Source: Salinivibrio sp. ES.052
GTDB taxonomy: Bacteria > Pseudomonadota > Gammaproteobacteria > Enterobacterales > Vibrionaceae
DNA: 64,000 nucleotides
Direction: 5' to 3'
Assembly: GCF_900141775.1 (NCBI RefSeq)
Contig: NZ_FSRI01000001.1
Coordinates: forward strand, 186,001-250,000
Shown here: one piece after another, positions 1 to 18,560 of the stretch
Layout: every line of letters begins with the position of its first letter
Numbering within the stretch: position 1 is the first letter of the stretch
Notes under the pieces: generated by a model
Database searches by the model: none
Told to the model about the DNA's origin: nothing
What the model saw: only the letters and a program-made list of their open reading frames with translations
Translations under genes and position numbers: made by a program

Positions 1-374
1 TATTTTTGTCACGCCAGGCGATGGACATTCTCATCGCCTTAAAGACATTTGCCGGTGGGTCTGATTACATTCTTCCTTCCCGTTATGACTCTGATGCTCC
101 AATGAGTAGTGCGACGATGAACCGAGTCATGGATTTGACATACAAAGCCGCGCAAAAGGAAGGTCAGTCACTAAATAAGTTTGGGCCGCATGACCTGCGT
201 CGAACTGCGAGCACTTTGCTGCATGAAGCTGGATACAATACGGATTGGATAGAAAAATGCCTGGCACACGAACAGAAAGGGGTGAGGGCAGTTTACAACA
301 AAGCCGAGTACCGAGAACAGCGCGCGGCCATGTTGCAGGATTGGGCTGACATGATTGATGAGTGGACAGTCTAG
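1..374 (+). CDS. Tyrosine recombinase/integrase, C-terminal part (5' end outside window)
   Basis: The frame is open from the window edge, so the start and the N-terminal DNA-binding domains are missing. The visible 120 or so residues are the catalytic C-terminus of a P4-like phage/island integrase: HDLRRT (the HxxR box), LAHE (the second conserved His) and VYNKAEY, which holds the nucleophilic Tyr. Such enzymes integrate and excise islands at att sites, often in tRNA genes, and usually sit just inside attL. The RepA/oriT element to the right is therefore plausibly its cargo, although attL is not in view. The family call is firm; ownership of the downstream element is inference. Confidence 0.85.
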   Translation, partial: FLSRQAMDILIALKTFAGGSDYILPSRYDSDAPMSSATMNRVMDLTYKAAQKEGQSLNKFGPHDLRRTASTLLHEAGYNTDWIEKCLAHEQKGVRAVYNKAEYREQRAAMLQDWADMIDEWTV

Positions 375-616: not shown

Positions 617-1624
617 GTGAACATATTTGATTACACACGTTATATTCTATCAATGGGTTCGGATGAACTGGAGATATTGGTTAGAAAGTGGGTAAGCGCC
701 CAATCAAGTAAGTATGCCTCAGTACATCGGCCTGCGGGAGCCGGTGATAGAGGTTGTGACGTAATAGGTTTCTATACTCCAAATAAATTTGAAGGAGATT
801 GGGATAACTATCAATGCAAACAATACAATAAAGCAGTCCCAACAGATAAAGGAATGCATGAGCTTGGAAAAATATTATATTATTCTTACTTAGGTGAGTT
901 CTCAAAACCAAAAAATTACTATTTTGTAGCGCCAAAAGGTATTAATAGAAACCTTAGAACTTGGATATTAAACCCCTCACAATTGAAGAAAGGTTTAATA
1001 GAAAACTGGGGTAAATATTGTGAAGACACTATTGTTGATGGTAAGAAAATAATTCTCGAACCAGAGCTGTAACGATTTATTTTAAGTTATGATTTCTCTT
1101 CTGTAAGTATTATTGGAATAGATGATATAGTCGATGATTCGAATTTTAGAGCAATTTTAGTCGATTTATATGGTGGGGAGCTTCCTAGTGCTCCAGCTGT
1201 AGAGGTTCCTAAAAATATCGACGATAGTGAACTAAATTATGTTAATAAAATTCTAGATGCTTATAGTGATCATGACCAAATAATATACTCAAAGCCAGAA
1301 GAGGTGGTTGGCCATGATGAGTTTGAAGAAGACTTTGTGGAGCAAAGAGAACGTTTTTATAGTGCAGAAGCATTTCGTTTATTTTATAGAGATAATACAG
1401 TAGATGGTGTTTTAGATTGTTTTGAGAAAGAAATACTTAAAGGTGTAAAACCAACTCTTAGGTTAGATTATCCTAATTCATTTATAAGAATGTGTACTGT
1501 CTTGTCTGAAGCTGGAAAACTACAGCCATCTGGTAAATTAGCAATTCATGGAAAGATAGACGTCAAACAAGGGTATTGTCATCAGTTTGCTAATGAAGAT
1601 AAGTTACACTGGAGGAAAAAATAA
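617..1624 (+). pseudogene. ABC-3C system nuclease effector, interrupted by an in-frame TAA
   Basis: One frame runs from ATG 617 to 1624 except for a single TAA at 1070-1072. Reading stays open through 1073-1303, with no frame change, and the second half continues to a stop overlapping the next ATG. The N-terminal part has PD-(D/E)xK (Mrr-like) nuclease features: GDRGCDVIG followed by the QxK-type YQCKQY. The part after the stop corresponds in position to the C-terminal domain that links ABC-3C effectors to their partners. A CAA-to-TAA change (EL-Q-RF) would explain the break simply. The upstream 151-residue product would keep the nuclease motifs but lose the linking domain. Assignment is by motif plus operon context. 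Confidence 0.75.
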
Positions 1625-2058
1625 TGTCCAATACACATGTTTTCAATAGCTCGTTAGAAGCCGGTGTTAGGACTATCTGCTTTCTTGATTCATACTTTCC
1701 AGAGAGTATGGATTTTGATGGATTGATGAAAATTGATTTCATACTTGTTCATTCTAGTGACTTTGGTGGCCCGGAAAGTCTTCATCCAGTAACACCTAAT
1801 CGAAAAGGGGAATACTTTTCCCGTAGAGAGAAAGTCAGATCAGGACTTGATCTTATGAGAGAGTTTGGGCTTGTCGAAGTTGATTACACAAATAATGGAG
1901 TCGCTTATAAAGCATCAGAGTATGTTAGTCCTTACTTAGATCTAATGAAGTCCAATTATTCGTTATCATTAATTACAATATCAGAATGGCTAGCAAAAGA
2001 ATTAAACAAAAATGGATTTGAAAAGTTTAACATAACTCTGGAAAATAAGGTGTTTTAA
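1624..2058 (+). CDS. ABC-3C system middle component
   Basis: This 144-residue protein begins inside the stop codon of the effector (taATG) and ends in the same way on the ATPase gene, so the three are translationally coupled. The pattern FDGLMKIDFILVHSSDFGGPESLHPVTP, followed by a conserved basic REKVRSGLDLM helix, resembles the small middle-component family of ABC-three-component systems, as does its position between a nuclease-type effector and an SMC-like ATPase. The family is defined by context and its exact biochemical role is not established; it presumably bridges ATPase and effector. This is the only intact gene of the three. Confidence 0.75.
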   Translation: MSNTHVFNSSLEAGVRTICFLDSYFPESMDFDGLMKIDFILVHSSDFGGPESLHPVTPNRKGEYFSRREKVRSGLDLMREFGLVEVDYTNNGVAYKASEYVSPYLDLMKSNYSLSLITISEWLAKELNKNGFEKFNITLENKVF

Positions 2059-3898
2059 TGAACTCTGGTTTTTTTATAAATAAAATACTATTTATTGGTG
2101 ATGATAATAAAGCATCAATTGATTTTTCCAATCACCTTCATATTGTGCATGGTGCCTCGAATACAGGGAAATCTCTATTAATTGAAGCTATAGATTATAT
2201 GTTTGGTTCTGAGGAGCTTAAAGAGGTTAAACCAGAAAGTGAAAAATACTCAGAAGTAGCAATGCAGCTTTATCTAAATAGTATACCTTATACTGTTTTT
2301 AGAAAATGGCCCTCGAACTCTTTTGAAATATATCATGATTTCGTTGAAGAAAAAGATGGTGCAAATTTTTATAGCTATTTTAAAGTAGGAAAAGAAAAAA
2401 AACAGTAAAAAATATTAGTGACTTTTATCTAAGTGGTTTAAGGGATGTAGAAATATCATCTAATCTATATGGTGAAAAAAGTTCTCTTACAATACGATTA
2501 TTATCAAGGGTTTTCTTTTCTAGTGAGGAGAAAATAATTAGTTCTAACTCTCCGATTGTCGTTGGAGATACTAGCGAAGATAGTAAAAATAAAAATATAT
2601 TTAAGTTTCTACTTACTGGAAATGATGACTCTAACGTAAAAACTGTAGTTCGTGGTAATGAATTTAAGAGCGAAAAGAAAGGGCAGTTAGATGTATTGAG
2701 AGATGTTGTAGAGACTTTACAATCTGATTTGATGTTTAAAGATGAGAGTTATGAAGATCTTAAAGAAAGAGAGGTTAAGCTAGATAGTACGATAGAAAAG
2801 TTGAATCATAGTATGAGTTTGATGAAAGAGTCTCTATCAGAAGTTGTAAAGAATAAAAGAAATATTGCCAATGAATTAATTAGTGTTGATGAAAGAAATG
2901 ATAATATTAAATCAAATCTAGCTAATTTTGAAATATTAGAGAAAATATATATTAGCGATATCGAAAGATTGAGTTCTCAAGAGGAAGCTGCATTCCTATT
3001 AGGCGTCGGACATCATGCTCAATGTGAACATTGCGGTAAGACACCAGAGAAAATATGTGAAGACTTGATGGATGTTGAAAAATTAGCTAAATCATCTCAA
3101 ATAGAAATTAAAAAAATAAAATATAAATTATTAGAGTTAAATGAAACAAGATTAAAATTAAAATCCCAGCTAGATAATTATTATTCAAGATCGCAAAGCT
3201 TAAGCTATGACTTGAAGTGTATAGATGATGAAGTTGAAAATAGAACTCCAGAAATAAAGATTATTGATGAAAAAATATCAGAGTTGACGGAAGAGCGAAA
3301 TCTTGTTTTATCAGATATCCGATTGCTTGAACGTATAAATGTTTTCTATAAAAGACTCCAAGAAACAGAATTCGCCTCTACACCGAAGAAATATAAATCC
3401 CATGATTTTTATCCTGAAAATGAAGCTGTAGATAATTTTTGTAGGATATATAAAGATATTTTAAATCAAATAAATTTTCCTGGTAATAATGAGGTTTCTT
3501 TCGACTTTTCTACTTTTGATGTGGTTATCGATGGCAAGCCTAGAAGTTTAAATGGTAAAGGAGTTAGGGCAATATTACATTCAGTGTTTAAAATTGCTCT
3601 CCTTAAACACTGTAAGGAAAGTAGCCTTTACCACCCAGGGATTATTGTGCTCGATTCTCCTTTAGTTACTTATAGAGATCCATTTAAAAGTAAACATGGA
3701 GATTTAGATGATGATGAGAAAGAGTTGGCAAATACTAAGGTTAGTTATCATTTCTTAAAATATTTAACCGAAAATAATATTGGGCAATTTATTATTGTCG
3801 AAAATATAGATATACCCGATTCGCTCACAAATAGTATTGGTGTAGATACATTTTACGGTAATAATGCTGAAAATGGTCAAAGGGCTGGTTTGCTCTAA
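2058..3898 (+). pseudogene. ABC-3C system SMC/Rad50-like ATPase, frameshifted in an A8 tract
   Basis: Two pieces of one gene: 2058-2408 in one frame, then from about 2402 to 3898 in the -1 frame. The first piece holds Walker A (GASNTGKS). The second holds a long coiled coil, a zinc-hook-like CEHC in its middle, and Walker B (GIIVLDSPL) near the end, as in Rad50/SMC-like ATPases. The break lies in eight A residues (2395-2402). In the first frame this reads A AAA AAA, a classical -1 slippery heptamer, and a -1 slip joins the halves exactly. One lost A, a sequencing error or true frameshifting are all possible. Without rejoining, Walker A and B are on separate peptides. Confidence 0.75.
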
Positions 3899-5169: not shown

Positions 5170-5397
5170 ATGAATCCATCAATGACAAACAAAACGCTGA
5201 TAAATCGCAAGACCTTACTCAGCATGATCCCTTTGTCTGATCGAACCATCTATAACTTGGAACAGCGTGGTGAGTTTCCTCGTCGTATTGTTCTGACCAG
5301 CCGAAGTGTTGCTTGGGACCTGGCTGAAGTGGAGAACTGGATAGAAGAAAAGCGCAGGTCTGCGTTAAAAGCCGCAAGACCCGGTTTTATTTGGTAA
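5170..5397 (+). CDS. AlpA/MerR-like excisionase-type regulator
   Basis: A 75-residue protein with the AlpA-family winged helix: an N-terminal helix-turn-helix (LLSMIPLSDRTIYNLEQRGEFPRRIVL), then RSVAWDLAEVENWIEEK, the conserved W-x-x-x-x-V-x-x-W end of this family. A clear ribosome site (AAGGAGAGG) lies just before ATG 5170. AlpA-type proteins activate integrase expression or act as excision factors in P4-like islands and integrative elements, which fits the integrase to the left and the replication gene 12 nt downstream. Specific target sites are not visible. Confidence 0.8.
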   Translation: MNPSMTNKTLINRKTLLSMIPLSDRTIYNLEQRGEFPRRIVLTSRSVAWDLAEVENWIEEKRRSALKAARPGFIW

Positions 5398-5409: not shown

Positions 5410-6393
5410 ATGACGCTTAAAGATGTAACGGATGTTCAGGCTAGGGGAACCAGTCGGCAAAAAAGTGCCTCGGGTGCCAGCGGTAAACTAGAGCTAAGCA
5501 CGAAATATATAGACAACATCATAGCAATCCAGGAGTGCAGTGCTCAGGAGGCTAATGAACTCGGTTTTATTGCTCGGCTTCTGATTCAAGCAACCATACC
5601 GCACAGTAAGCCAGAATCGAATGAGTGGAGTCGGAAGAATGGTAATTTCACAATGCACATGATGGCCCCCTCATCGGTAGGTTTGCCTTACGGTTGCTAT
5701 GCACGTTTGCTTCTGGTTTGGGTAAGTACACAAGCGGTGAGAAATAAGTCAAGACTGGACAATGGTTTTATCACTGAACAGGAAGCGCGAAAGCTTGATC
5801 TGGGACACTCTCAAAGACGTTTTATGGAAGAGTTAGGGCTGCGTTCAACTGGCGGAAAAAGTGGGACTATAGGCCCATTTCGAGAACAGATGCGGCGGTT
5901 ATTTAAAACGACGATTAGTGTCAGTTTTACAGAGCTAAACGATGAAAGTGGATATATTTGTGAAGATGAAACTGGAGCCAGAGTTGCTGATATTTCCCAT
6001 ATTTGGTGGAGTACGAAGCAGCCTGATCAAGATTCACTATGGGAATCTTGGGTGGAACTGTCGCCTAAGTTTTTTCAACTGATTACTGATAAACCTGTCC
6101 CTCTGGATATGAGAGTGTTGAGGTTGATTAAGCGTTCTCCGATGGCCTTAGACATATATTGCTGGGCGACTTATCGGGTGAGTTACTTAAAGAGAGCAAC
6201 AATTATCCCGTGGTCAGGTTTGATGGAACAATTGGGCTCTAATTACGCCAATGTAAAAAGCTTTAGACGACGGTTTAATGATGGACTTGAAAAGGTGTTG
6301 CAGGCATGGCCAGAGCTAGATGCTACTCCAACTGAAAAAGGGCTACTTTTGAAACCAAGTGCTCCACAAGTACCTCGACGGACAAAACGATAG
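5410..6393 (+). CDS. repA: Plasmid-type replication initiator RepA
   Basis: A 327-residue protein resembling the 'plasmid encoded RepA' family: conserved blocks around GLPYGCYARLLLVWVSTQAVR, QRRFMEELGL-STGGKSGTIGPFREQMRRLF, and MALDIYCWATYRVSYL, with a basic C-terminus. These proteins bind iterons next to their own gene and open the origin. Four direct repeats at 6481-6571 start 88 nt after the stop and strongly support the assignment. The gene starts 12 nt after the AlpA-like gene and probably shares its transcript; the ribosome site is weak. It indicates that the element replicates, or once did, as a plasmid or plasmid-like intermediate. Confidence 0.8.
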   Translation: MTLKDVTDVQARGTSRQKSASGASGKLELSTKYIDNIIAIQECSAQEANELGFIARLLIQATIPHSKPESNEWSRKNGNFTMHMMAPSSVGLPYGCYARLLLVWVSTQAVRNKSRLDNGFITEQEARKLDLGHSQRRFMEELGLRSTGGKSGTIGPFREQMRRLFKTTISVSFTELNDESGYICEDETGARVADISHIWWSTKQPDQDSLWESWVELSPKFFQLITDKPVPLDMRVLRLIKRSPMALDIYCWATYRVSYLKRATIIPWSGLMEQLGSNYANVKSFRRRFNDGLEKVLQAWPELDATPTEKGLLLKPSAPQVPRRTKR

Positions 6394-6472: not shown

Positions 6473-6820
6473 TTATCCACGCATGTTATGTCCCGCTTTA
6501 AAGGGGATATTTTGCGCATGTTCTGTCCCGGCTTACGCATGTTTTGTCCCAGAGTGCGCATGTTCTGTCCCGCGAAGTGCCAAAAAGTTTTTTAATAACA
6601 GGTAGTTGTAGAGCCCCCTATAGTACTTTCCTGTAGGTATACCTATATAGAAAATAAACCTGTAGTTGAATAAACAAGTATTGTGGATAACTTTGATAAA
6701 TAAGTTGCTCAAAACTGTCAATGAAATCATTTTTTTGAAGTTGGTGTATTTTTAACTATATGAAAATAAAGTAAATTTTATTTTTGTTATCTTGATTTTT
6801 AAAAATTTATTGACACTTGA
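6473..6820. other. Putative plasmid replication origin (oriV)
   Basis: Downstream of repA the sequence lists the parts of an iteron origin in order: a DnaA-box-like TTATCCACG (6473-6481), four iterons (6481-6571), a perfect DnaA box on the minus strand (TGTGGATAA, 6682-6690), and a strongly AT-rich stretch (about 6720-6815) that could be the unwinding element. The order and the repA neighbour support an origin; activity cannot be judged from sequence. Confidence 0.75.
6481..6571 (+). repeat. Four RepA iterons, GCATGTTnTGTCCC
   Basis: Direct 14-bp repeats start at 6481, 6516, 6537 and 6558, differing only at position 8 (A, C, T, C). The last three are spaced exactly 21 bp apart, two helical turns, as expected for an initiator binding one face of the helix; the first is 35 bp away from the second. 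A short ORF that crosses them is not a gene. Confidence 0.85.
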
Positions 6821-6925
6821 GGGGCGGTAAAATACGAACGCTCTGAACTTAGCCTAGAGCGGAAAGTGTTAGGAAAGCTGTGTTTTTCGGTGTCGTGATA
6901 TTGAGTAAAGCCAACACACATAAAT

Positions 6926-6991
6926 CGCTGTAAGACCGCTATTTTAGCGCTATTCAGTCGCTATAAGTGCGCTGTCATACCGTTATAAGTG
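6926..6991 (+). repeat. Six helically phased 11-bp direct repeats
   Basis: Units start at 6926, 6937, 6948, 6959, 6970 and 6981, exactly every 11 bp, each beginning CGCT (CGTT in the last), with a consensus close to CGCTATAAGTG. They lie between the RepA origin and oriT, where IncP plasmids carry traK, which is absent here. Exact one-turn phasing suggests a co-operative protein array, as in R1-type parC centromeres or oriT accessory sites. The binding protein is unknown. Confidence 0.75.
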
Positions 6992-7094: not shown

Positions 7095-7195
7095 TACGGG
7101 CAGGATGTGTGAAGTAGGCACACCATGCAAGCATGGCGAAGCCTCTTCACTTTGGACTTATTCGCACCTTCGGAGCTCAACGTTAATCCTGCCCT
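7095..7195 (-). other. oriT: IncP (RP4)-like origin of transfer, oriT
   Basis: Read on the minus strand, this region matches the RP4 oriT as I know it in order and spacing: GCAGGATT, CGTTGAGC, GGTGCGAATAAG (7157-7168 on plus), AGTGAAGA, CCTACTTCAC (7109-7118) and ATCCTGCCCG. The nick is predicted on the minus strand between 7101 and 7100 (ATCCTG/CCCG). An imperfect inverted repeat, GTGAAGTAGGC (7109-7119) with GCCTCTTCAC (7141-7150), is the likely TraJ site. As in RP4, traJ is transcribed away from oriT, directly to the right. Confidence 0.88.
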
Positions 7196-7221
7196 GCGGG
7201 GCCAGAGAGAGGAGGCAAAGC

Positions 7222-7596
7222 ATGGGGAACAGCACGAACAAGATCACTCGAAAGAATAGCCCACCGATTAAGGTTTACTGTCTGCCAGAGGAGCGTGAGT
7301 TGATCGAATCGCTGTCTGTGCAAGCAGGTCTTAGTACTTCTACTTATCTACGTGAAGTCGGCCAAGGTTATCGCATTCAAGGTATTACCGATGTAGAACA
7401 GGTACGCGAACTGGTAAGAGTGAATGGTGACTTAGGGCGTTTGGGTGGTTTGCTTAAGTTATGGCTTAGTAATGATGCCAAGGTAGCGAATGTGGGAGTC
7501 AATACAATCTTAGCGGTGCTTAATCGTATTGAAGCGACGCAAGATCAAATGAGCTCGCTTATGGAATCCATTCTTCGGCCAAGGGCCGATCAATGA
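7222..7596 (+). CDS. traJ: Relaxosome protein TraJ (oriT recognition)
   Basis: A 124-residue protein from ATG 7222, chosen because a strong GAGAGGAGG ribosome site precedes it; the frame is open upstream through oriT but that part has no gene character. It closely follows IncP TraJ: SPPIKVYCLPEER near the N-terminus, YLREVGQGYRI, and the signature VNGDLGRLGGLLKLWL, ending in RPRAD. TraJ binds the inverted repeat at oriT and directs the relaxase to nic. It overlaps traI by 4 nt (ATGA), so the two are coupled. Length matches RP4 TraJ (about 123 residues). Confidence 0.92.
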   Translation: MGNSTNKITRKNSPPIKVYCLPEERELIESLSVQAGLSTSTYLREVGQGYRIQGITDVEQVRELVRVNGDLGRLGGLLKLWLSNDAKVANVGVNTILAVLNRIEATQDQMSSLMESILRPRADQ

Positions 7597-9353
7597 TAGT
7601 CAAGCACGTACCGATGCGTTCGCAAGGTAAGTCTGACTTTGCGGGCTTGGTGAATTACATCACCGATCACCAGAGCAAAGAGCATCGACTTGGTAGCGTT
7701 CGTTTAAATAACTGTGAAGCAGAAACCGTGCGCGATGCGATCAGTGAGGTGTTGGCGACTCAATTCGCGAACACCCGAGCGAAAAGTGATAAAACCTACC
7801 ACCTCATAGTGAGCTTCCCTAATGGTGAACAGTTAAAAGCGCATACTTTGGCTGCGATAGAAGAGCGCATTTGCCAAGGCTTGGGTTATGGAGAACATCA
7901 GCGTGTCAGTGCTGTGCACAACGATACGGACAACCAACATATCCATATCGCAATTAACAAGATTCACCCTACTCGCAACACAATCCATGAGCCGTACTAC
8001 CCGCATAAAAAGCTAGCGGAAATGTGCGAGGCCATCGAGCAGGATTTTGGTTTGCAGCCGGATAATCACATACCGCGCAAGCGCGGGGCCGAATTACGTG
8101 CGATGGATATGGAGCGGCATTCGGGTATTGAAAGCTTAGTGGGGTGGGTGAAGCGCGAATGCATGGACGAGATTAAATTAGCCAGTAGCTGGCAGGCGTT
8201 GCACCAGGTCATGCAGGACAATGGTTTGCAGTTAAGAACCAGAGGAAATGGTCTAGTGATCGTTGCCGATGGTGAAGCGATCATCAAAGCGAGCACCTTG
8301 GGACGTGAGTTTTCTAAACCCAAACTCGAAGCACGCATTGGTCCCTTTGAAGCGACTGCATCGGATTCTGTTAAGCCGAGCCGCCAATATACACACCGAC
8401 CTGTTCGCTTAAAGGTGAATACCACCGAGCTATATTCCCGTTATCAAGCAGAGCAGAAACATGCTGCAGAGAGTAAAACGCAAGCCCTTGAACAGGCTCG
8501 TCGTGATAAAGATCGACAGGTTGATAACGCCAAGAGGAAAGGGCGTGGCCGTCGCGCAGCGATTAAGTTGACCGGTAGCAATCAGCTTACTAAGAAGCTT
8601 TTGTACAAACAGGCCAGCAATGCATTGAAAAGCGAGCTTGAGCGCATTCACAAGCGTTACCAAGAGCAACGGCAAACGATATATCAAAGCAATAAACGCC
8701 AAACCTGGGCGGATTGGTTAAAGAGCCAGGCATTACAGGGAGATGGAGAAGCCCTCAAAGCGCTACGTAGCCGAGAGGCTGCACAAAAGCTTAAAGGCAA
8801 CACACTAAACGGGGATGCAGTTCAGGCTGAGCCCAAAGCAATGGTCGATACGATTACGAAAAAAGGCACCATTATTTATCGAGCAGGTAACAGCGCCGTG
8901 CGTGATGATGGTGAGCGTCTACAAGTGTCGACGGCTTCCAACCAAAGCAGTGTTTTAGCTGCGCTAAAGGTAGCAATGGAGCGTTATGGTAATCGTATTA
9001 CCGTGAATGGTTCGCCTGAGTTCAAGGCGCGAGTAATCAAGGCGGCAGTAGATGGCAATCTGTCTATCAAATTTGCCGATCAAGGACTAGAACGCCGCCG
9101 TCAGGCATTAATAGCCCAGAATAAAAGGGCCAAGCGGTCTGATAAGCCTGGCGTGTTACCGATTGGCAAAGTGCCACCTTCACGCCGTGGCCGGCTGCAG
9201 AATCTATCTCAGTTAGAGGTTCTAGCTATTAAGTCAGGCCCTGTAACTGAAAAAACGGTGGTCATGCCAGCATTAGAGCAACGTAAAGCCAAGCTACAAG
9301 CTGAGCAGGCAGCTAAAAAAGCTAAACGACAACATAAGAGCCGCTCACGTTGA
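7593..9353 (+). CDS. traI: MOB-P relaxase TraI with C-terminal LPD7-type domain
   Basis: A 586-residue relaxase that nicks oriT and leads the transferred strand. The N-terminus follows RP4 TraI closely: MIVKHVPMRS, then YITDHQ with the nucleophile at Tyr22, and the metal-binding motif HNDTDNQHIHIAINKIHPTRNTIHEPY. A conserved MERHSGIESLVGW block follows, then a charged coiled segment, and a C-terminal region (GTIIYRAGNSAVRDDGERLQVS ... GNLSIKFADQGLERRR) typical of the LPD7 domain of such relaxases. It is shorter than RP4 TraI (about 732 residues), mainly in the C-terminal half. The catalytic part appears intact. Confidence 0.93.
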   Translation: MIVKHVPMRSQGKSDFAGLVNYITDHQSKEHRLGSVRLNNCEAETVRDAISEVLATQFANTRAKSDKTYHLIVSFPNGEQLKAHTLAAIEERICQGLGYGEHQRVSAVHNDTDNQHIHIAINKIHPTRNTIHEPYYPHKKLAEMCEAIEQDFGLQPDNHIPRKRGAELRAMDMERHSGIESLVGWVKRECMDEIKLASSWQALHQVMQDNGLQLRTRGNGLVIVADGEAIIKASTLGREFSKPKLEARIGPFEATASDSVKPSRQYTHRPVRLKVNTTELYSRYQAEQKHAAESKTQALEQARRDKDRQVDNAKRKGRGRRAAIKLTGSNQLTKKLLYKQASNALKSELERIHKRYQEQRQTIYQSNKRQTWADWLKSQALQGDGEALKALRSREAAQKLKGNTLNGDAVQAEPKAMVDTITKKGTIIYRAGNSAVRDDGERLQVSTASNQSSVLAALKVAMERYGNRITVNGSPEFKARVIKAAVDGNLSIKFADQGLERRRQALIAQNKRAKRSDKPGVLPIGKVPPSRRGRLQNLSQLEVLAIKSGPVTEKTVVMPALEQRKAKLQAEQAAKKAKRQHKSRSR

Positions 9354-9590: not shown

Positions 9591-10364
9591 ATGCTAAAAC
9601 GAAAAATTTTAGCGGCTAAAATTCCCGTGCTTGCCATCTCCTTGGCGTTAAACCTTTCTAATCCTGTATATGCGGGGATTCCGGTTGCTGATGGTACGAA
9701 TCTAGTTCAGAACATCATGTCGGCAATGGAAGCTGTTACACAGACTGCTAAACAAATTCAGCAGTATCAAACCCAATTGCAGCAGTACGAAAATATGCTG
9801 CAAAACTCGATGGCCCCAGCTTCTTATATTTGGGACCAGGCGCAGCGCACCATCAACGATCTGAACCAGGCGACCAACACGCTCGCCTATTACCAGAACC
9901 AGCTTGGCAGCCTCGATGCTTACCTAGGCAAGTTCCAGGACGTGGCCTATTACCGCAGTTCGCCTTGTTTCTCGGCAGCGGGGTGCAGTGATGCAGAACG
10001 GGCCGCAATGACCGAGAACCGACGCCTTGCGTCTGAATCGCAGAAAAAGGCCAACGACGCACTGTTTAGGAGTCTGGAGCAGCAGCAAGATAACTTGGAA
10101 GCAGATGCCCGTCAGCTTAACCGCCTGCAATCTGGTGCTCAGAGCGCGGACGGCCAATTGGCGGCTATTGGCTACGCTAACCAGCTCGCTAGCAACCAGG
10201 CCAACCAGCTCCTGCAAATCCGAAGCCTATTGATTGCCCAGCAGAATGCCGTTGGCACTCGAATGCAGGCGGATGCTGACCGCGAAGCTCAATATCAAGC
10301 GTCTCGTGAAAGGTTGTTCGATATGGGCGAGCCAACCGACCGTTCAGAAAACAGGGGGTTTTAA
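9591..10364 (+). CDS. trbJ: Conjugal transfer protein TrbJ (VirB5-like)
   Basis: A 257-residue exported protein with a signal peptide (hydrophobic core AKIPVLAISLALNL, cleavage near VYA-GIP), followed by Gln-rich amphipathic helices (QTAKQIQQYQTQLQQYENML) typical of TrbJ/VirB5, a minor pilus component in the periplasm. In IncP plasmids trbJ follows trbB-trbI; here it directly follows traI after a 237-bp non-coding gap (9354-9590), and the missing trb genes are not elsewhere in the window. Base composition changes inside the gene to a more GC-rich body. Its last 15 or so residues (DMGEPTDRSENRGF) recur at the end of the next gene. Confidence 0.85.
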   Translation: MLKRKILAAKIPVLAISLALNLSNPVYAGIPVADGTNLVQNIMSAMEAVTQTAKQIQQYQTQLQQYENMLQNSMAPASYIWDQAQRTINDLNQATNTLAYYQNQLGSLDAYLGKFQDVAYYRSSPCFSAAGCSDAERAAMTENRRLASESQKKANDALFRSLEQQQDNLEADARQLNRLQSGAQSADGQLAAIGYANQLASNQANQLLQIRSLLIAQQNAVGTRMQADADREAQYQASRERLFDMGEPTDRSENRGF

Positions 10365-10569
10365 TCATGAAGAATATCACCCGAGTTTTTATCGTTAGCG
10401 TGTTGGCCTCTTTTGCTATGGTGGGGTGCGGCGAAGATGACGGGCCAAAGCCTGCAACGATCAACTGTGACAAGCCGAACCTGACGAAAGAGCAGAAGGA
10501 AAAAGGGAGCTGTCTTTGGGATATGGGCGAACCCACGGATCGCTCCAAGAACAAGGGGTTCTAATCATG
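10320..10569 (+). repeat. Duplicated gene tails ending trbJ and trbK, 200 bp apart
   Basis: The segments 10320-10369 and 10520-10569 are near-copies at an offset of exactly 200 bp. Each encodes DMGEPTDRSxNxGF, then a stop, then the same TAATCATGA leading into the next start codon. The copies differ mostly at silent positions, so the peptide itself appears to be kept. Confidence 0.8.
10367..10564 (+). CDS. trbK: TrbK-like small lipoprotein (entry exclusion type)
   Basis: A 65-residue protein with a lipoprotein signal (VLASFAMVGC, lipidated Cys at residue 21), lying between trbJ and trbL as trbK does in IncP plasmids, where TrbK prevents entry of related plasmids. Two further cysteines (INCDKPN, GSCLWD) flank a charged middle. 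Its end (LWDMGEPTDRSKNKGF) nearly repeats the end of TrbJ. Identification rests on position, size and lipobox rather than strong sequence recall. ATG 10367 follows the trbJ stop by 2 nt. Confidence 0.7.
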   Translation: MKNITRVFIVSVLASFAMVGCGEDDGPKPATINCDKPNLTKEQKEKGSCLWDMGEPTDRSKNKGF

Positions 10570-11844
10570 ACCAAGATATTTATTCGGCTTGTCATGCTCC
10601 TGGCAGTTGTACTTACTTCGCAAACAGCATCAGCGGCCATTGAGCCTAATGGTGTCTTGGATGAAGTGGCCGTGCGTTTCATGACGGCCAGTGCTACTTG
10701 GGGCACGGTAATTACAAACTATGCTGCCTGGCTATTCTGGACGCTGGGCACTATATCCCTTGTTTGGACTGGCGGGACCTTAATCCTTAAGCAAGCGGAT
10801 ATAAGGGAGTTTTTTGCCGAGTTCGTGCGCTTCATCTTGACGTTTGGTTTCTTTCTCTGGTTACTCAGAAACGGCCCAGACTTTGCCACGTCAATTATCG
10901 ATTCATTGAGAACGATCGGTGCTCAAGCCGGTGGCCTTTCGAGAGACCTAACCCCGTCAGAGCCTATTAGTATTGCGTTCGACATTATTGTGAAAGCTGG
11001 TAAGTCATACAGCATCACCAGTCCGATAGATAACTTGTCTATCTTCTTGATAACGTTGGCAATTTTGGCGTGTATGGCGGTAGTGGCGGCCAATGTGTTG
11101 TTGGCCTTGGTGACGGCTTGGATATTAGTCTATGCCGGTGTTTTCGTGCTGGGGTTTGGTGGTTCGCGTTGGACTTCGGATATAGCAATCAACTACTTCA
11201 AAAGCGTATTAGGCGTTGCTTTGAAGTTGATGACAATGACGTTGCTTATTGGCATTGCCATGTCGATCATGGATGGTTTCTATGCCGATCTATCCAATGA
11301 TGCTCCCATGCGTGAATTGTTGGTGATCTTTGTCGTTTCACTGGTTCTCGTGATGCTCATTCACTCGGTTCCCAATGTGGTCGCTAGCCTGGTTCCTGGA
11401 GGCGGCGCGGCGGCAGGTGCTGGCAGCATCAGTGCCGGTGCGATGGCCGGAGCGGCTGTTGCCACTGGTGGTATGGCTGTCGGTGCCGCAATGGCTACCG
11501 CCGGCGGTGCGTCTGCTATTCAGGCTGCATTTGCAAAAGCGGGTGAGAACGTAGCGAATAATACTGACGTTATGTCGAGCCTGGGCGGTGCATTTAGTGG
11601 CAGTGGCGATTCTGATGAGGCTGGCTCCTTCTCTCAAGCTTCCGGTCAATCTTCTGGCGGCGGCTTTAAAGGTAGCGCTGTAAAAGCGGGGCGTATTGCA
11701 GCGGATACCGGTGCGAATTTGATGAAGGGAATGGGTGATATGGCCGGGGATAGAATCAGCGGCACTACCGGAGGTCGTCTAGCTAGTTCGATCCGAAACA
11801 GTACGAAAGATAACGGGGATGATGACGATAAGGAGGGCGACTGA
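10567..11844 (+). CDS. trbL: Conjugal transfer membrane protein TrbL (VirB6-like), probably C-terminally frameshifted
   Basis: A 442-residue polytopic inner-membrane protein: signal-like N-terminus ending SASA, about six hydrophobic segments between residues 50 and 280, then a Gly/Ala-rich stretch (GGGAAAGAGSISAGAMAGAAVATGG) and a low-complexity hydrophilic tail, as in TrbL/VirB6. The start is ATG 10567, 2 nt after trbK. The frame ends KDNGDDDDKEGD-TGA at 11842; removing one base (T11842) would continue as DDDASPAFDNDSLGGGG in the overlapping ORF to 12097 and bring the length to about 525 residues, near the RP4 TrbL size. A one-base insertion near the C-terminus is therefore likely. Confidence 0.85.
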   Translation: MTKIFIRLVMLLAVVLTSQTASAAIEPNGVLDEVAVRFMTASATWGTVITNYAAWLFWTLGTISLVWTGGTLILKQADIREFFAEFVRFILTFGFFLWLLRNGPDFATSIIDSLRTIGAQAGGLSRDLTPSEPISIAFDIIVKAGKSYSITSPIDNLSIFLITLAILACMAVVAANVLLALVTAWILVYAGVFVLGFGGSRWTSDIAINYFKSVLGVALKLMTMTLLIGIAMSIMDGFYADLSNDAPMRELLVIFVVSLVLVMLIHSVPNVVASLVPGGGAAAGAGSISAGAMAGAAVATGGMAVGAAMATAGGASAIQAAFAKAGENVANNTDVMSSLGGAFSGSGDSDEAGSFSQASGQSSGGGFKGSAVKAGRIAADTGANLMKGMGDMAGDRISGTTGGRLASSIRNSTKDNGDDDDKEGD

Positions 11845-12097: not shown

Positions 12098-12117
12098 CTA
12101 AATAAGGATTATTGATT

Positions 12118-12372
12118 ATGGAGTTTAACTTTCCACCTCAAAACCTTGCGGAGGTATTTGGTTTCTTCGCAGTGATGTTCATTGTGATGCTTGCTTTCTA
12201 TTTTTTTGGACAGTGGCTACACAGCATCGGACACGGTCCGAAGTTGAAAGCCATTGCCGACAAAATGGAGGTTTTCCAAAACAGGTTGGCCGGGCGTGCT
12301 TACAAGGACATGACGAGATCGGTCGATCAAATCGACAAAATGAGACGTTGGCCATTTGGCCGACGCAAGTAG
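12118..12372 (+). CDS. Small single-span membrane protein of the trb cluster
   Basis: An 84-residue protein of unknown function, one transmembrane helix (VFGFFAVMFIVMLAFYFFG, about residues 14-32) followed by a basic cytoplasmic tail ending RRWPFGRRK. ATG 12118 follows TAAGGA and lies 20 nt after the previous ORF, so it probably belongs to the trb transcript. About 80 bp of its 5' part recurs at 15896-15980, where it has decayed. It is the last gene of the conjugation-type cluster before the AT-rich cargo. Confidence 0.65.
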   Translation: MEFNFPPQNLAEVFGFFAVMFIVMLAFYFFGQWLHSIGHGPKLKAIADKMEVFQNRLAGRAYKDMTRSVDQIDKMRRWPFGRRK

Positions 12373-12634
12373 TTAGAAAGCACACGTGCCGGTGATGGTG
12401 TTCCACTTTGTACTGCTGCCCCCTCATTGAGACAGTATTAAGCCCCATAGAAAGAAACCACAACTAGGCTAATGTTGTGGTGGTGTGGTTAAATAAACCT
12501 AAATTATTGATATATTAGGTTTTATTTGTTTTTTTTGTCATCATTATAAATATGCTTTTTAATTGATTTCTATTGTAATAAATGCTATAAATTTACAAGT
12601 GACACAACAATATTGTTGGGGAGTTTCTAAAGGA

Positions 12635-13078
12635 ATGATACCAGAATTTAATGAGTCGGGTAATTTGCCAGAAGGAGTGCATTTAGCCACGATGGAAGAA
12701 TTGATCGCACGATTTGGCTACAACCCAAAGCGTGCTTGGTTAATTGATGGACTAAAGCTTCTAATTTCAGCGCTCGAAAGTGCGAACTGTAATTTGGTTT
12801 ACATCGATGGAAGTTTTGTTACATCAAAGGAAATCCCTGGTGACTATGATTTGTGTTGGAGTCTACATGGTGTCGATGAGTCGAAATTAGATCGTGCACT
12901 TATTGATTTTTCTCCATCAGGTAGAAAATACATGTTGCAGAAATATCGAGGCGATATATTTCCTGCAGAATTACCAGAAGGAGGGTCGGGAAAGCTATTT
13001 GTCGATTTTTTTCAAACTGATAAAAACACCCTTGAGAAAAAAGGCATTGTGGCAATTAAGACTGGAGGTTCATCATGA
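12635..13078 (+). CDS. DUF6932-type minimal nucleotidyltransferase-fold protein
   Basis: A 147-residue protein from ATG 12635 (GGGGAG 11 nt upstream; the longer upstream frame lacks a ribosome site). It begins IPEFNESGNLPEGVH, which I associate with the DUF6932 family. IDGSFVTSKEIPGDYDLCW fits the nucleotidyltransferase motif (G-S, then D-x-D), and LFVDFF supplies a third acidic residue, so the catalytic triad looks complete. Similar folds act in AbiEii and MNT-type toxin-antitoxin systems. It overlaps the following XRE-peptidase gene by 4 nt. Substrate unknown; a toxin-antitoxin or defence role is inference from fold and coupling. Confidence 0.7.
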   Translation: MIPEFNESGNLPEGVHLATMEELIARFGYNPKRAWLIDGLKLLISALESANCNLVYIDGSFVTSKEIPGDYDLCWSLHGVDESKLDRALIDFSPSGRKYMLQKYRGDIFPAELPEGGSGKLFVDFFQTDKNTLEKKGIVAIKTGGSS

Positions 13079-14508
13079 TTAAAAATAATAAGCAGTTAGC
13101 TTTAACCAAAAAACGTATACAAGAGTTTTCTGAAGCAATTGAAAAACTTAATAGAGAAGAGTCTAAATTTTCTCCATTGTTAGCGAAAGCTCAGATTGAT
13201 GCACTAATGTGTCAGCGTGATGATTTGGTTGAGCAAGCGGAAGAATACGAACTACTGCTATCTGGTGAACTTGCTATTTTTGATGTGAATAGTATTTCTG
13301 ACCTCCCTAAAGCTCTTATTATGTCTCGTATTTCAATGGGGTTAACTCAAAAAGATCTGGCTGAAAGACTAGGGATGAAAGAGCAGCAAATACAAAGGTA
13401 TGAAAACACGGAGTATAGCTCCGCAAGTTTTAGTACTCTTGTTTCAATTGTAGATGCTTTAGATTTAAAAATAACAGAAGATGTCTTTTTACCTAAAGAT
13501 TCTAGAGAGAAAAATATATTAATATCAAAGCTAAATGATGCTGGTTTAGATAGAAACTTTATTGAAAAGAGAATTTTACCTCGTGATTTGATGCCTTTCG
13601 AATATGGCCTTTGGGTAGAAAAAACAGTAGAAAAACTTCAATCTATATTTGGATGGAATAAGGATCTTCTATTAGGTGATAGGCCGTTAGTTTTTGGGCG
13701 TGATGGATCAATGGTTGCAAGGTTTAAAATGCCAGTAGGTGCTAACGAGCTATATACAAGTGCTTATACGCAATATGCTTATACAATTGCAAATATTGTA
13801 GCTAAGTACTGTTCTTTAGAAAAGAAAGGCATACCTCAGGATGCTAATGTAGTTAGAGGTGATATTCTAGATAAATATGGCGAGTTAACATTTGAATCAG
13901 TTTTATCTTACGCTACTGAACTGGGTGTTCCTGTTATTCCTTTGAACGATTCTGGAGCTTTTCATGGCGCGACTTGGCGTATAAATGGTAGAAATGTAGT
14001 TGTACTTAAGCAAAAATCTAGACATACATCAAAATGGATGTTTGATTTACTTCATGAGCTCTACCATGCATCCCAATCACCAGAGCTGGATGAGTTTACA
14101 ATTGTTGAGCTTAGTGAGACAAGTGAAGAGCGGAGAAATGATCAAGAAGAAATTGATGCTAATAATTTTGCAGCAAGTGTTCTTCTCGGTGAAAAAGCCG
14201 GTAGTTATATTGAGCAATGCTTTAAAAATGCAAATGGTAATATTGCTTGGCTGAAAAATTCAGTTATTAAAGTCGCCGAAGAAAACGATTTAGATTGTGG
14301 TGTTTTAGCATATCAAGTAGCAAATAAATTGGACTCTATATCCAAACAGACTGGAAAGAAGGTCAATTGGTGGGGAGCTGCAAATAATCTGCAAAGGAAT
14401 ACTTGTGAGCCAAGTAATCTATGCTTTGATCAACTTTCAATAAGTGTTAATTTTGACCAAATGGAAGAGTTTGAGAGAGAATTGATTGAGCAAGTATCTG
14501 CTGATTAA
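13075..14508 (+). CDS. XRE-type HTH protein with ImmA/IrrE-like metallopeptidase domain
   Basis: A 477-residue protein with an N-terminal coiled segment, a Cro/CI-like helix-turn-helix (residues ~80-130: ISMGLTQKDLAERLGMKEQQIQRYE), and a C-terminal ImmA/IrrE peptidase region with zinc motif HELYHA (about residue 325) and a distal NNFAASVLL helix. Such proteins cleave repressors or antitoxins in stress or phage-related switches. It starts inside the stop of the nucleotidyltransferase gene with ribosome site GGAGG, so the two are co-expressed. The pairing suggests a regulated toxin or defence module, with this protein as regulator or sensor; that role is inferred. Confidence 0.75.
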   Translation: MIKNNKQLALTKKRIQEFSEAIEKLNREESKFSPLLAKAQIDALMCQRDDLVEQAEEYELLLSGELAIFDVNSISDLPKALIMSRISMGLTQKDLAERLGMKEQQIQRYENTEYSSASFSTLVSIVDALDLKITEDVFLPKDSREKNILISKLNDAGLDRNFIEKRILPRDLMPFEYGLWVEKTVEKLQSIFGWNKDLLLGDRPLVFGRDGSMVARFKMPVGANELYTSAYTQYAYTIANIVAKYCSLEKKGIPQDANVVRGDILDKYGELTFESVLSYATELGVPVIPLNDSGAFHGATWRINGRNVVVLKQKSRHTSKWMFDLLHELYHASQSPELDEFTIVELSETSEERRNDQEEIDANNFAASVLLGEKAGSYIEQCFKNANGNIAWLKNSVIKVAEENDLDCGVLAYQVANKLDSISKQTGKKVNWWGAANNLQRNTCEPSNLCFDQLSISVNFDQMEEFERELIEQVSAD

Positions 14509-15762: not shown

Positions 15763-15850
15763 CTGTTATTTAGTTAGATTTCATGCTTGTTGATATTCGA
15801 GTGGAGTAGGGCTGATTATAAATAGTTAATCAGGTCTTAGAAAATAAATG

Positions 15851-15881
15851 AAAAGCCAGTCAGTTTCTGACTGGCTTTTTT
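15851..15881 (+). terminator. Rho-independent terminator, module tail copy 1
   Basis: AAAAGCCAGTCAG, loop TTT, CTGACTGGCTTTTT. The A and T arms make it usable in both directions. Confidence 0.9.
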
Positions 15882-15892
15882 ATGGCTTCTCA

Positions 15893-15980
15893 CTTCATCC
15901 TCAAAACCTTGCGGAGGTATTTGGTTTCTTCGCAGTGATGTTCATTGTGATACTGGCCTTCTATTTTTTTGGGGCAGTGA
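15893..15980 (+). pseudogene. Decayed duplicate of the small membrane gene at 12118
   Basis: CCTCAAAACCTTGCGGAGG and the following 60 or so bases match 12132-12213 with few changes, covering the transmembrane segment (LAEVFGFFAVMFIV). It has no start codon of its own, loses similarity after GGGGCAGTG, and its reading frame runs into the 3' end of the DUF4865 gene on the other strand. It is a gene fragment, not a functional copy. Confidence 0.8.
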
Positions 15981-16045
15981 ATATTATGGGTATTCTGTTA
16001 GTAGTTAGTATGGGAAGCGAGTACATTTTTAATTGTTCATTAAAT

Positions 16046-16525
16046 CTAACCGTGGGCTATATAACCGATAGAATAGATGTTGCCACTCATTTTATCGGCT
16101 AACTCTGGTTGAGCGAGCCACGAGACACTCACTGTCTCCCAAGAGGTAACATTGAGACCTTGAATATCCGCATTCTGACTGACCTGATTGTCTATACATG
16201 CAAACGAACATTCTGAATTTGGTATTGTTGGTTCATCCTCTATAAACCAAATCTTGACTTCCGGTCGACCAAATTGCTCACATAATCCTTTAAATCCTTC
16301 ACTTCTAAGAAAAGTCATCATAGAGTGATGATCTCTCCAAACATAAAAGGGAGCATAACTGTTGCTGCTTGTATAATATTCTGCATTTTTTCGTGAATAA
16401 AGGTAGGCCTTAAAGACTAATCCAGGGTATCCATCTAATAAATTTCCTTTTTCCCTGATACGAGTTTCTATTTTTTCCATCGGATAATCCGACGGGAGAA
16501 TAATTTTATATTGCATTGCTATCAT
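16046..16525 (-). CDS. DUF4865 family protein
   Basis: A 159-residue protein beginning MIAMQYKIILPSDYPMEKIETRIREKG, with GLVFKAYLYSRK and YAPFYVWRDHHSMMTFL, which I recognise as the DUF4865 pattern. Function is not established; the family usually travels with tautomerase-like and carboxymuconolactone decarboxylase-like genes under a divergent LysR regulator, exactly as here. It overlaps the upstream tautomerase gene by 4 nt. It is on the short side for the family and its 3' end lies next to a gene fragment, so the C-terminus may be altered. Confidence 0.75.
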   Translation of the reverse strand: MIAMQYKIILPSDYPMEKIETRIREKGNLLDGYPGLVFKAYLYSRKNAEYYTSSNSYAPFYVWRDHHSMMTFLRSEGFKGLCEQFGRPEVKIWFIEDEPTIPNSECSFACIDNQVSQNADIQGLNVTSWETVSVSWLAQPELADKMSGNIYSIGYIAHG

Positions 16526-18264: not shown

Positions 18265-18560
18265 AGTACCACTAACTCTGACTTGATATTGAGGTAGAGT
18301 TAGTCAAGGATTTTCTTGGCTTTAGGCCTGAAGTGCTTCCTGCCGTTTTTTATTGTCACGTCGACGAGACGAAAAAAATCAAAAAAATTCTGCGCATGGT
18401 ATCGATGATGGTATCGAGAAAGTTGGTGTTTCTAACTAGCTGTTATTTCGGTGTATTTTTTTCCGTTGATATTCGAGTGGGAGTAGGGCTGATTATAAAT
18501 AGTTAATCAGGTCTTAGAAAATAAATGAAAAGCCAGTCAGTTTCTGACTGGCTTTTTTAT
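18265..18560 (+). repeat. Module tail, copy 2 (internally deleted), in an otherwise gene-free gap
   Basis: The 18137-18603 gap has no gene. It holds a remnant of the minus-strand mini-gene (about 18280-18368), joined at CGTCGACG to the end of the plus-strand mini-gene (KNQKN portion), then the shared downstream block (GATATTCGAGTGG, AGTTAATCAGG) and terminator. Recombination between the two CGTCGACG sites of a copy-1-like tail would produce this form. Confidence 0.75.
18528..18558 (+). terminator. Rho-independent terminator, module tail copy 2
   Basis: AAAAGCCAGTCAG, loop TTT, CTGACTGGCTTTTTT, identical in its stem to the one at 15851. Confidence 0.9.

Follow-up and report, generated by a model that had tools for sequence, protein, structure and literature searches.

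The guaA-integrated island of Salinivibrio sp. ES.052 carries, between repA and an RP4-like oriT, six direct repeats with a period of 11 bp that, judging from their sequence and position, are most probably a TraK-type binding array. On balance, the comparisons described below favor an operator array of an IncP-like oriT leader that was retained after the loss of traK, with TraK supplied by a helper plasmid. TraK-type arrays themselves are of a known kind; the array without its gene is new.

Period and Uniqueness of the Array

The array occupies positions 6926–6991 (plus strand) of the window, that is, of the whole 64,000-nucleotide stretch of DNA that was analyzed. Its units are CGCTGTAAGAC, CGCTATTTTAG, CGCTATTCAGT, CGCTATAAGTG, CGCTGTCATAC, and CGTTATAAGTG, with a consensus of about CGCTATAAGNG, referred to below as the clade I motif. 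CGCT begins at 6926, 6937, 6948, 6959, and 6970, giving five exact copies with a period of 11, and the sixth unit, at 6981, begins with CGTT. The preliminary description, in which CGCT occurred six times at an exact 11-bp period, thus had the coordinates, the period, and five of the copies right and was off by one base in the last unit. At lag 11 the array has 31 matches out of 55, where dinucleotide shuffles give 19.7 (z 4.4, p 0.004), and no other segment within 64 kb reaches a score of 31. It is also the sole case in the window of a run of at least five identical 4-mers at any period from 7 to 30, and comparable runs occurred in none of 30 mononucleotide-shuffled versions of the whole window and none of 200 of the intergenic region. 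In a separate pattern count, CGCT-N7-CGCT-N7-CGCT gave 4 matches, with 0.3 expected. The permutation check proposed with the first description therefore shows a periodicity that neither dinucleotide nor mononucleotide shuffling produces. The same description had set the array apart from the RepA iterons, and rightly so: the RepA-type iterons (CGCATGTTCTGTCCCG, mostly at 21-bp spacing) lie outside the array at 6478–6572 (plus strand), and the difference in motif and spacing rules out a RepA iteron as the identity of the array.

The Host Island

The element hosting the array is a chromosomal mobilizable island of the GIflu/GIsul2 kind, integrated at guaA and containing int, AlpA, RepA, an RP4-like oriT, TraJ, TraI, and TrbJ-K-L. 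Upstream of the window lie guaB, guaA (L107 3302–4879), and, 0.3 kb after guaA, the start of a 395-aa integrase gene (L107 5187–6374, PF00589), the C-terminal end of which falls at window positions 6–374. This end and the features that follow are all on the plus strand: alpA, encoding an AlpA-type regulator and likely excisionase (5170–5397, PF05930, E 7e-13); repA (5410–6393, RepA_C, PF04796, E 1.2e-36); the TTGACACTTGAGGGGC landmark (6810–6825), which is 288 bp from oriT and in TraK-bearing plasmids lies beyond traK; and the RP4/R751-like oriT (7098–7215), with the nick-region motif GGGCAGGATGTGTGAAGTAGG and an inverted repeat expected to bind TraJ. The nic site is expected on the minus strand. 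Then come traJ, for a NikA-like relaxosome protein (7222–7596, PF21983, NCBIfam TraJ equivalog, E 3e-52), traI, for a MOBP relaxase (7593–9353, PF03432, NF041893, E 2.9e-171), trbJ (9591–10364, NF010452, E 5.7e-117), a weakly matching gene for a trbK-like entry-exclusion lipoprotein (10367–10564, TIGR04359, 19.1 bits, below the cut-off of 23), and trbL (10564–11844, TIGR02783, E 4.6e-76). Transfer-channel genes other than TrbJ-K-L were not seen in the island. Over a stretch of about 108 bp, the oriT reaches up to 88% identity with those of TraK-bearing IncP-like plasmids, and TraJ and TraI are 69 and 61% identical, respectively, to their pMAD49b counterparts.

The attL core, GAGTGGGA, is located in the 3′ end of guaA (G000:C6:184868; L107 4868), and a second copy of only 8 bp at 18475–18482 (plus strand), about 19.6 kb away, is the probable attR core; the core sequence matches that given in PMC9376610 and PMC13418153. 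GIflu of Vibrio (PMC13418153) and GIsul2 (PMC9376610) share with the island the integration at the guaA 3′ end, the GAGTGGGA core, the integrase, AlpA, RepA, and TrbJ-K-L, and GIflu also TraJ and TraI; the window island differs from them in its cargo, a Lamassu-like operon. An array, an oriT, or a missing traK is not mentioned in the consulted parts of either paper.

The TTGACACTTGAGGGGC motif is conserved upstream of the leader (window 6810–6825, L003 3411, L067 1366, L068 1286, L069 1203 and 1309) and occurs in the island and in plasmids, with two copies in V. furnissii. Its role is probably origin-related.

Loss of traK

The Burkholderia glumae IncP island (PMC5704250) and plasmids like pMAD49b resemble the island in TraJ, TraI, TrbJ-K, and IncP-like transfer genes; unlike it, both carry traK. 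Five TraK-bearing IncP-like mobilizable plasmids share the order TTGAYACTTGAGGGGC landmark, traK, array, oriT, and in them the landmark is 636–716 bp from oriT, compared with 286–288 bp in the window and in L004, L005, and L006. The shortfall of 348–430 bp is to be compared with a traK length of 393–423 bp. The gap is about the size of traK, the gene that the island family has lost. A TraK profile found nothing at E 10 in the Salinivibrio genome and nothing in the island loci of its relatives, and in ten other genomes with related islands no TraK is detectable; the same profile does detect TraK in six further Vibrionaceae genomes, none of them among the array-bearing ten. The supposition in the preliminary description that the element has lost traK accords with both the gap and the profile search of the genome. 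A scan of viral contigs for TraK returned no relatives. In the Salinivibrio genome no StbA homologue is credible, the best match having an E of 0.06 and stop codons. A small minus-strand ORF to the left of the array (ATG near 6919, located by eye) was considered as a TraK remnant and rejected, because the corresponding region of relatives contains indels and has lost the start.

Across this type of island the loss of relaxosome genes is graded, with oriT kept in each of three cases. The window lacks traK; the guaA island of E. coli W5-6 (L106) has traJ and oriT, with traK and traI unannotated; pL29 of V. alginolyticus (L002, NZ_CP017910.1) has an RP4-like oriT, with traJ, traI, and traK unannotated. 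The 29.7-kb “plasmid” record of pL29 contains an island relative together with yfgM and PQQ-repeat genes, which E. coli has immediately upstream of guaBA, and it may be a circularized chromosomal piece or an assembly artefact. Other Vibrionaceae islands (L099–L102, L119, L120) carry traK on the traJ strand, before the array and oriT, and have CGCT-type array units and a short TraI ORF.

Arrays in TraK-Bearing Plasmids and in R388

In IncP-type plasmids with traK, 11-bp-phased arrays are found between traK and oriT. Among traK-bearing IncP-type leaders, which were picked from database hits, are in part related to each other, and were tested post hoc, lag 11 is the best or joint best of lags 5–20 in 13 of 19, or in 10 of 16 with close pairs removed (p 3e-8), and its score exceeds that of shuffles at p < 0.05 in 13 of the 19. 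The lag-11 signal is not significant in R751, RP4-type R702 (the IncP-alpha representative, standing in for RP4, NC_001621), LMG31884, pXAM48, a Salmonella plasmid, and, narrowly, pP6VIM-11. The leaders of pIJB1 and pAKD4 are distinguished by the insertion of one 11-bp unit and by five single-base differences. The best four-unit segment of the island array ends 128 bp from the nick-region motif, and the corresponding distance is 107–140 bp in pMAD49b, pMCBF6, pIJB1, and pAKD4. Together with the landmark order, this distance supports the earlier placement of the array at the traK/leader position of IncP plasmids.

In RP4, binding by TraK extends over about 200 bp of curved DNA in the leader (PMC7314908), at a place between nic and traK (PMC3098194). 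Compared with the TraK-binding leader of IncP plasmids (srk; RP4, R751, pAKD4, pIJB1, pMCBF6), the island has its array likewise between nic and the (former) traK side, homologous oriT, TraJ, and TraI, the 11-bp phase, and the CGCT-type motif of clade I plasmids. In contrast to these plasmids, island and genome are without traK, and the array motif differs from that of RP4-type R702. In a contig assigned to Vibrionaceae (L085, G458:C57:3412–3515), the oriT leader is almost identical to that of RP4 (compare R702), possibly owing to a vector or contamination.

The stbDR region of R388, upstream of stbA, shows lag 11 in the same test (z 5.7). The stbDRs are 9-bp repeats with 2-bp spacers that are bound by StbA, of which RP4 TraK is reported to be a homologue (PMC3098194); a TraK profile matches StbA weakly (E 0.035). 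The island array and stbDR are alike in being phased direct repeats of 11-bp period beside oriT, with StbA as the reported TraK homologue. They differ in motif (TTGCATCAT in R388, about CGCTATAAGNG in the island) and in arrangement (two sets of five units vs. one set of six), and stbA is absent from the island.

Array Motif and TraK Clade

A position weight matrix (PWM) built from the array units of traK-less islands scores z 10.2 in the leader of pAKD4, 7.9 in pIJB1, and 5.8 in both pMCBF6 and pMAD49b, the same strand scoring better than the opposite one in all four, and finds no match in the R702/RP4-type leader (z 0.15). The TraK proteins of these four plasmids, together with that of R751, form one group (clade I) in a tree of the N-domain, with a support of 0.74. 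RP4-type TraKs and those of a third group go with other array motifs, by inspection GTRGAAA-like and CGATT-like. With the PWM, clade I outscores the two other TraK groups (p 0.003), and the more identical two TraK N-domains are, the more similar their arrays tend to be, a modest correlation (Mantel rho 0.23, p 0.005). Because R751, a member of clade I, matches poorly and pYH16056, of the third group, scores 4.8, the association of motif with clade is a tendency, not absolute. These sequence comparisons suggest a rule for TraK-type sites, namely phased 11-bp units with a motif that tends to follow the DNA-binding clade of TraK. Such a rule was not found in the open PubMed Central literature, and it could help to predict which helper plasmids move which island.

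Conservation among Related Islands

A DNA search found a leader and oriT matching the window in ten other Vibrionaceae genomes, and nine distinct Vibrionaceae leaders were aligned, genome-contig copies included. The array is kept in all nine of these leaders with the same oriT. Every unit, the sixth included, has CGCT in the V. furnissii and V. cincinnatiensis copies, and in V. salilacus and V. litoralis the period is kept, with CACT, CGGT, or CGTG in some units. Unit 1 of the L077/L080 leader carries a 1-bp deletion, the most diverged copies (L083/L084) align with exactly one 11-bp unit fewer, and one leader variant keeps the period and only part of the motif. The comparison of relatives put forward with the preliminary description thus finds the 11-bp period in nine distinct leaders, two of them one unit shorter and one with a 1-bp deletion. 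More distant relatives differ: the enterobacterial islands L008–L010 and L106, as well as pL29, keep oriT and have no array, and the enterobacterial guaA islands and pL29 are thereby ruled out as bearers of the same array. A plasmid collection searched with the island leader alone contains no plasmid carrying it, the matches listed covering oriT and not the array.

Invariant columns make up 56% of the array, 74% of the left flank, 52% of the right flank, and 90% of oriT. Since conservation of the array does not exceed that of its flanks, there is room for the reading that it is a relic, a former TraK-binding array whose function went with traK and which is now decaying, TraJ and TraI sufficing for mobilization. 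This is the main rival for the same reason. The substitutions that also hit the CGCT core among the Vibrionaceae leaders, the traK-sized gap, and the complete absence of the array from more distant relatives fit such decay. However, array identity falls to 71–74% among the Vibrionaceae leaders with the phase still kept, except in the first unit of one copy, and the length change in L083/L084 aligns as exactly one 11-bp unit. We judge the relic unlikely, with a chance large enough to be taken seriously.

Other Candidate Ligands and Functions

It is improbable that the array is the site of another island or host protein (AlpA, TraJ, or a nucleoid protein) that would regulate traJ or repA, or excision. 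The location between repA and traJ would suit this role, and AlpA and TraJ, both encoded by the island, are small proteins that bind DNA, but arrays that match it are also present in different surroundings in TraK-bearing plasmids, where they tend to follow the TraK clade. Moreover, the binding site of RP4 TraJ is a 19-bp inverted repeat near nic (PMC7314908), a region that in the island is separate from the array (7098–7215). A TraJ site is accordingly rejected as the identity of the array, the TraJ inverted repeat being expected at oriT.

The preliminary description had offered a minimal centromere or a relaxosome scaffold, and of the two the scaffold is the better supported. A centromere would serve the excised, RepA-replicating form, with one DNA-binding protein being enough for segregation, as in R388, where StbA/stbDR, with the same 11-bp period, gives plasmid stability without need for the ATPase StbB (PMC3098194); RepA and its iterons are present in the island. 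Against this stand the integration of the island in the chromosome and the lack of a partner: no StbA or TraK homologue was found in the genome, and Pfam and PADLOC scans detected no ParA-, ParB-, ParM-, or ParR-type domain in the main island ORFs, in agreement with the initial remark that parA and parB are not visible. A centromere is therefore very improbable. The parC site of R1 also consists of phased 11-bp direct repeats. Its parallel with the array, drawn at first through ribbon-helix-helix proteins, is less apt than those with R388 StbA/stbDR and TraK, for the island shows no ParM/ParR-type protein and the position and motif of the array are those of an oriT leader. Chance periodicity, which the shortness of the motif might suggest, is refuted by the uniqueness of the segment in 64 kb, its absence from shuffles, and the occurrence of the array in TraK-bearing plasmids.

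A Proposed Helper-Dependent Relaxosome

If the array is indeed a retained TraK operator, it would recruit the TraK of a helper plasmid. TraK, binding to the array and supplied in trans, would occupy each 11-bp unit on the same helix face, and the filament or wrap that results, lying some 110 bp from nic, might affect nicking or transfer by stabilizing the TraJ–TraI relaxosome. Lacking its own TraK, the island would obtain the protein from an IncP-type helper plasmid; from the array motif, a clade I helper is predicted, with a TraK of the R751/pAKD4/pMCBF6/Marinobacter clade. The same plasmid would provide the secretion channel. Relaxase and TraJ are still encoded by the island itself, whose relaxosome would be complete only in the presence of a suitable helper. 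IncP helpers have been proposed for related elements (PMC5704250); for this island, no helper plasmid was identified. The TraK-positive loci of Vibrionaceae were discarded as helpers, the G178 element being itself an integrated island, with a short traI ORF, in which no transfer channel was seen.

A bolder and tentative suggestion, to which we give less than even credence, is that the island family has outsourced TraK, the array reading the identity of the helper and licensing mobilization only with a compatible one. If this is true, mobilization would be licensed only in cells with a helper that matches the TraK clade of the array. The array also allows a simple test of whether relaxosome proteins, besides the secretion channel, are borrowed by mobilizable islands. 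GIflu islands can carry resistance genes and, in the published test, failed to transfer when no helper was present (PMC13418153); knowledge of the helper class would therefore be of practical value.

Cargo and Right Part of the Island

The cargo of the island includes a Lamassu-like defense operon (LmuA, LmuC, LmuB; ABC-3C) at window positions 617–3898. This copy looks broken or misassembled, LmuA and LmuB each being split into two separate ORFs. At 12563–14508, a DUF6932 protein and an HTH/IrrE-peptidase protein give weak matches to the PADLOC models RmrA and PDC-M63A. The ORFs at 12112–12372 and 15848–16102 have the stretch PQNLAEVFGFFAVMFIV.LAFYFFG in common, a partial duplication in the right part of the island.
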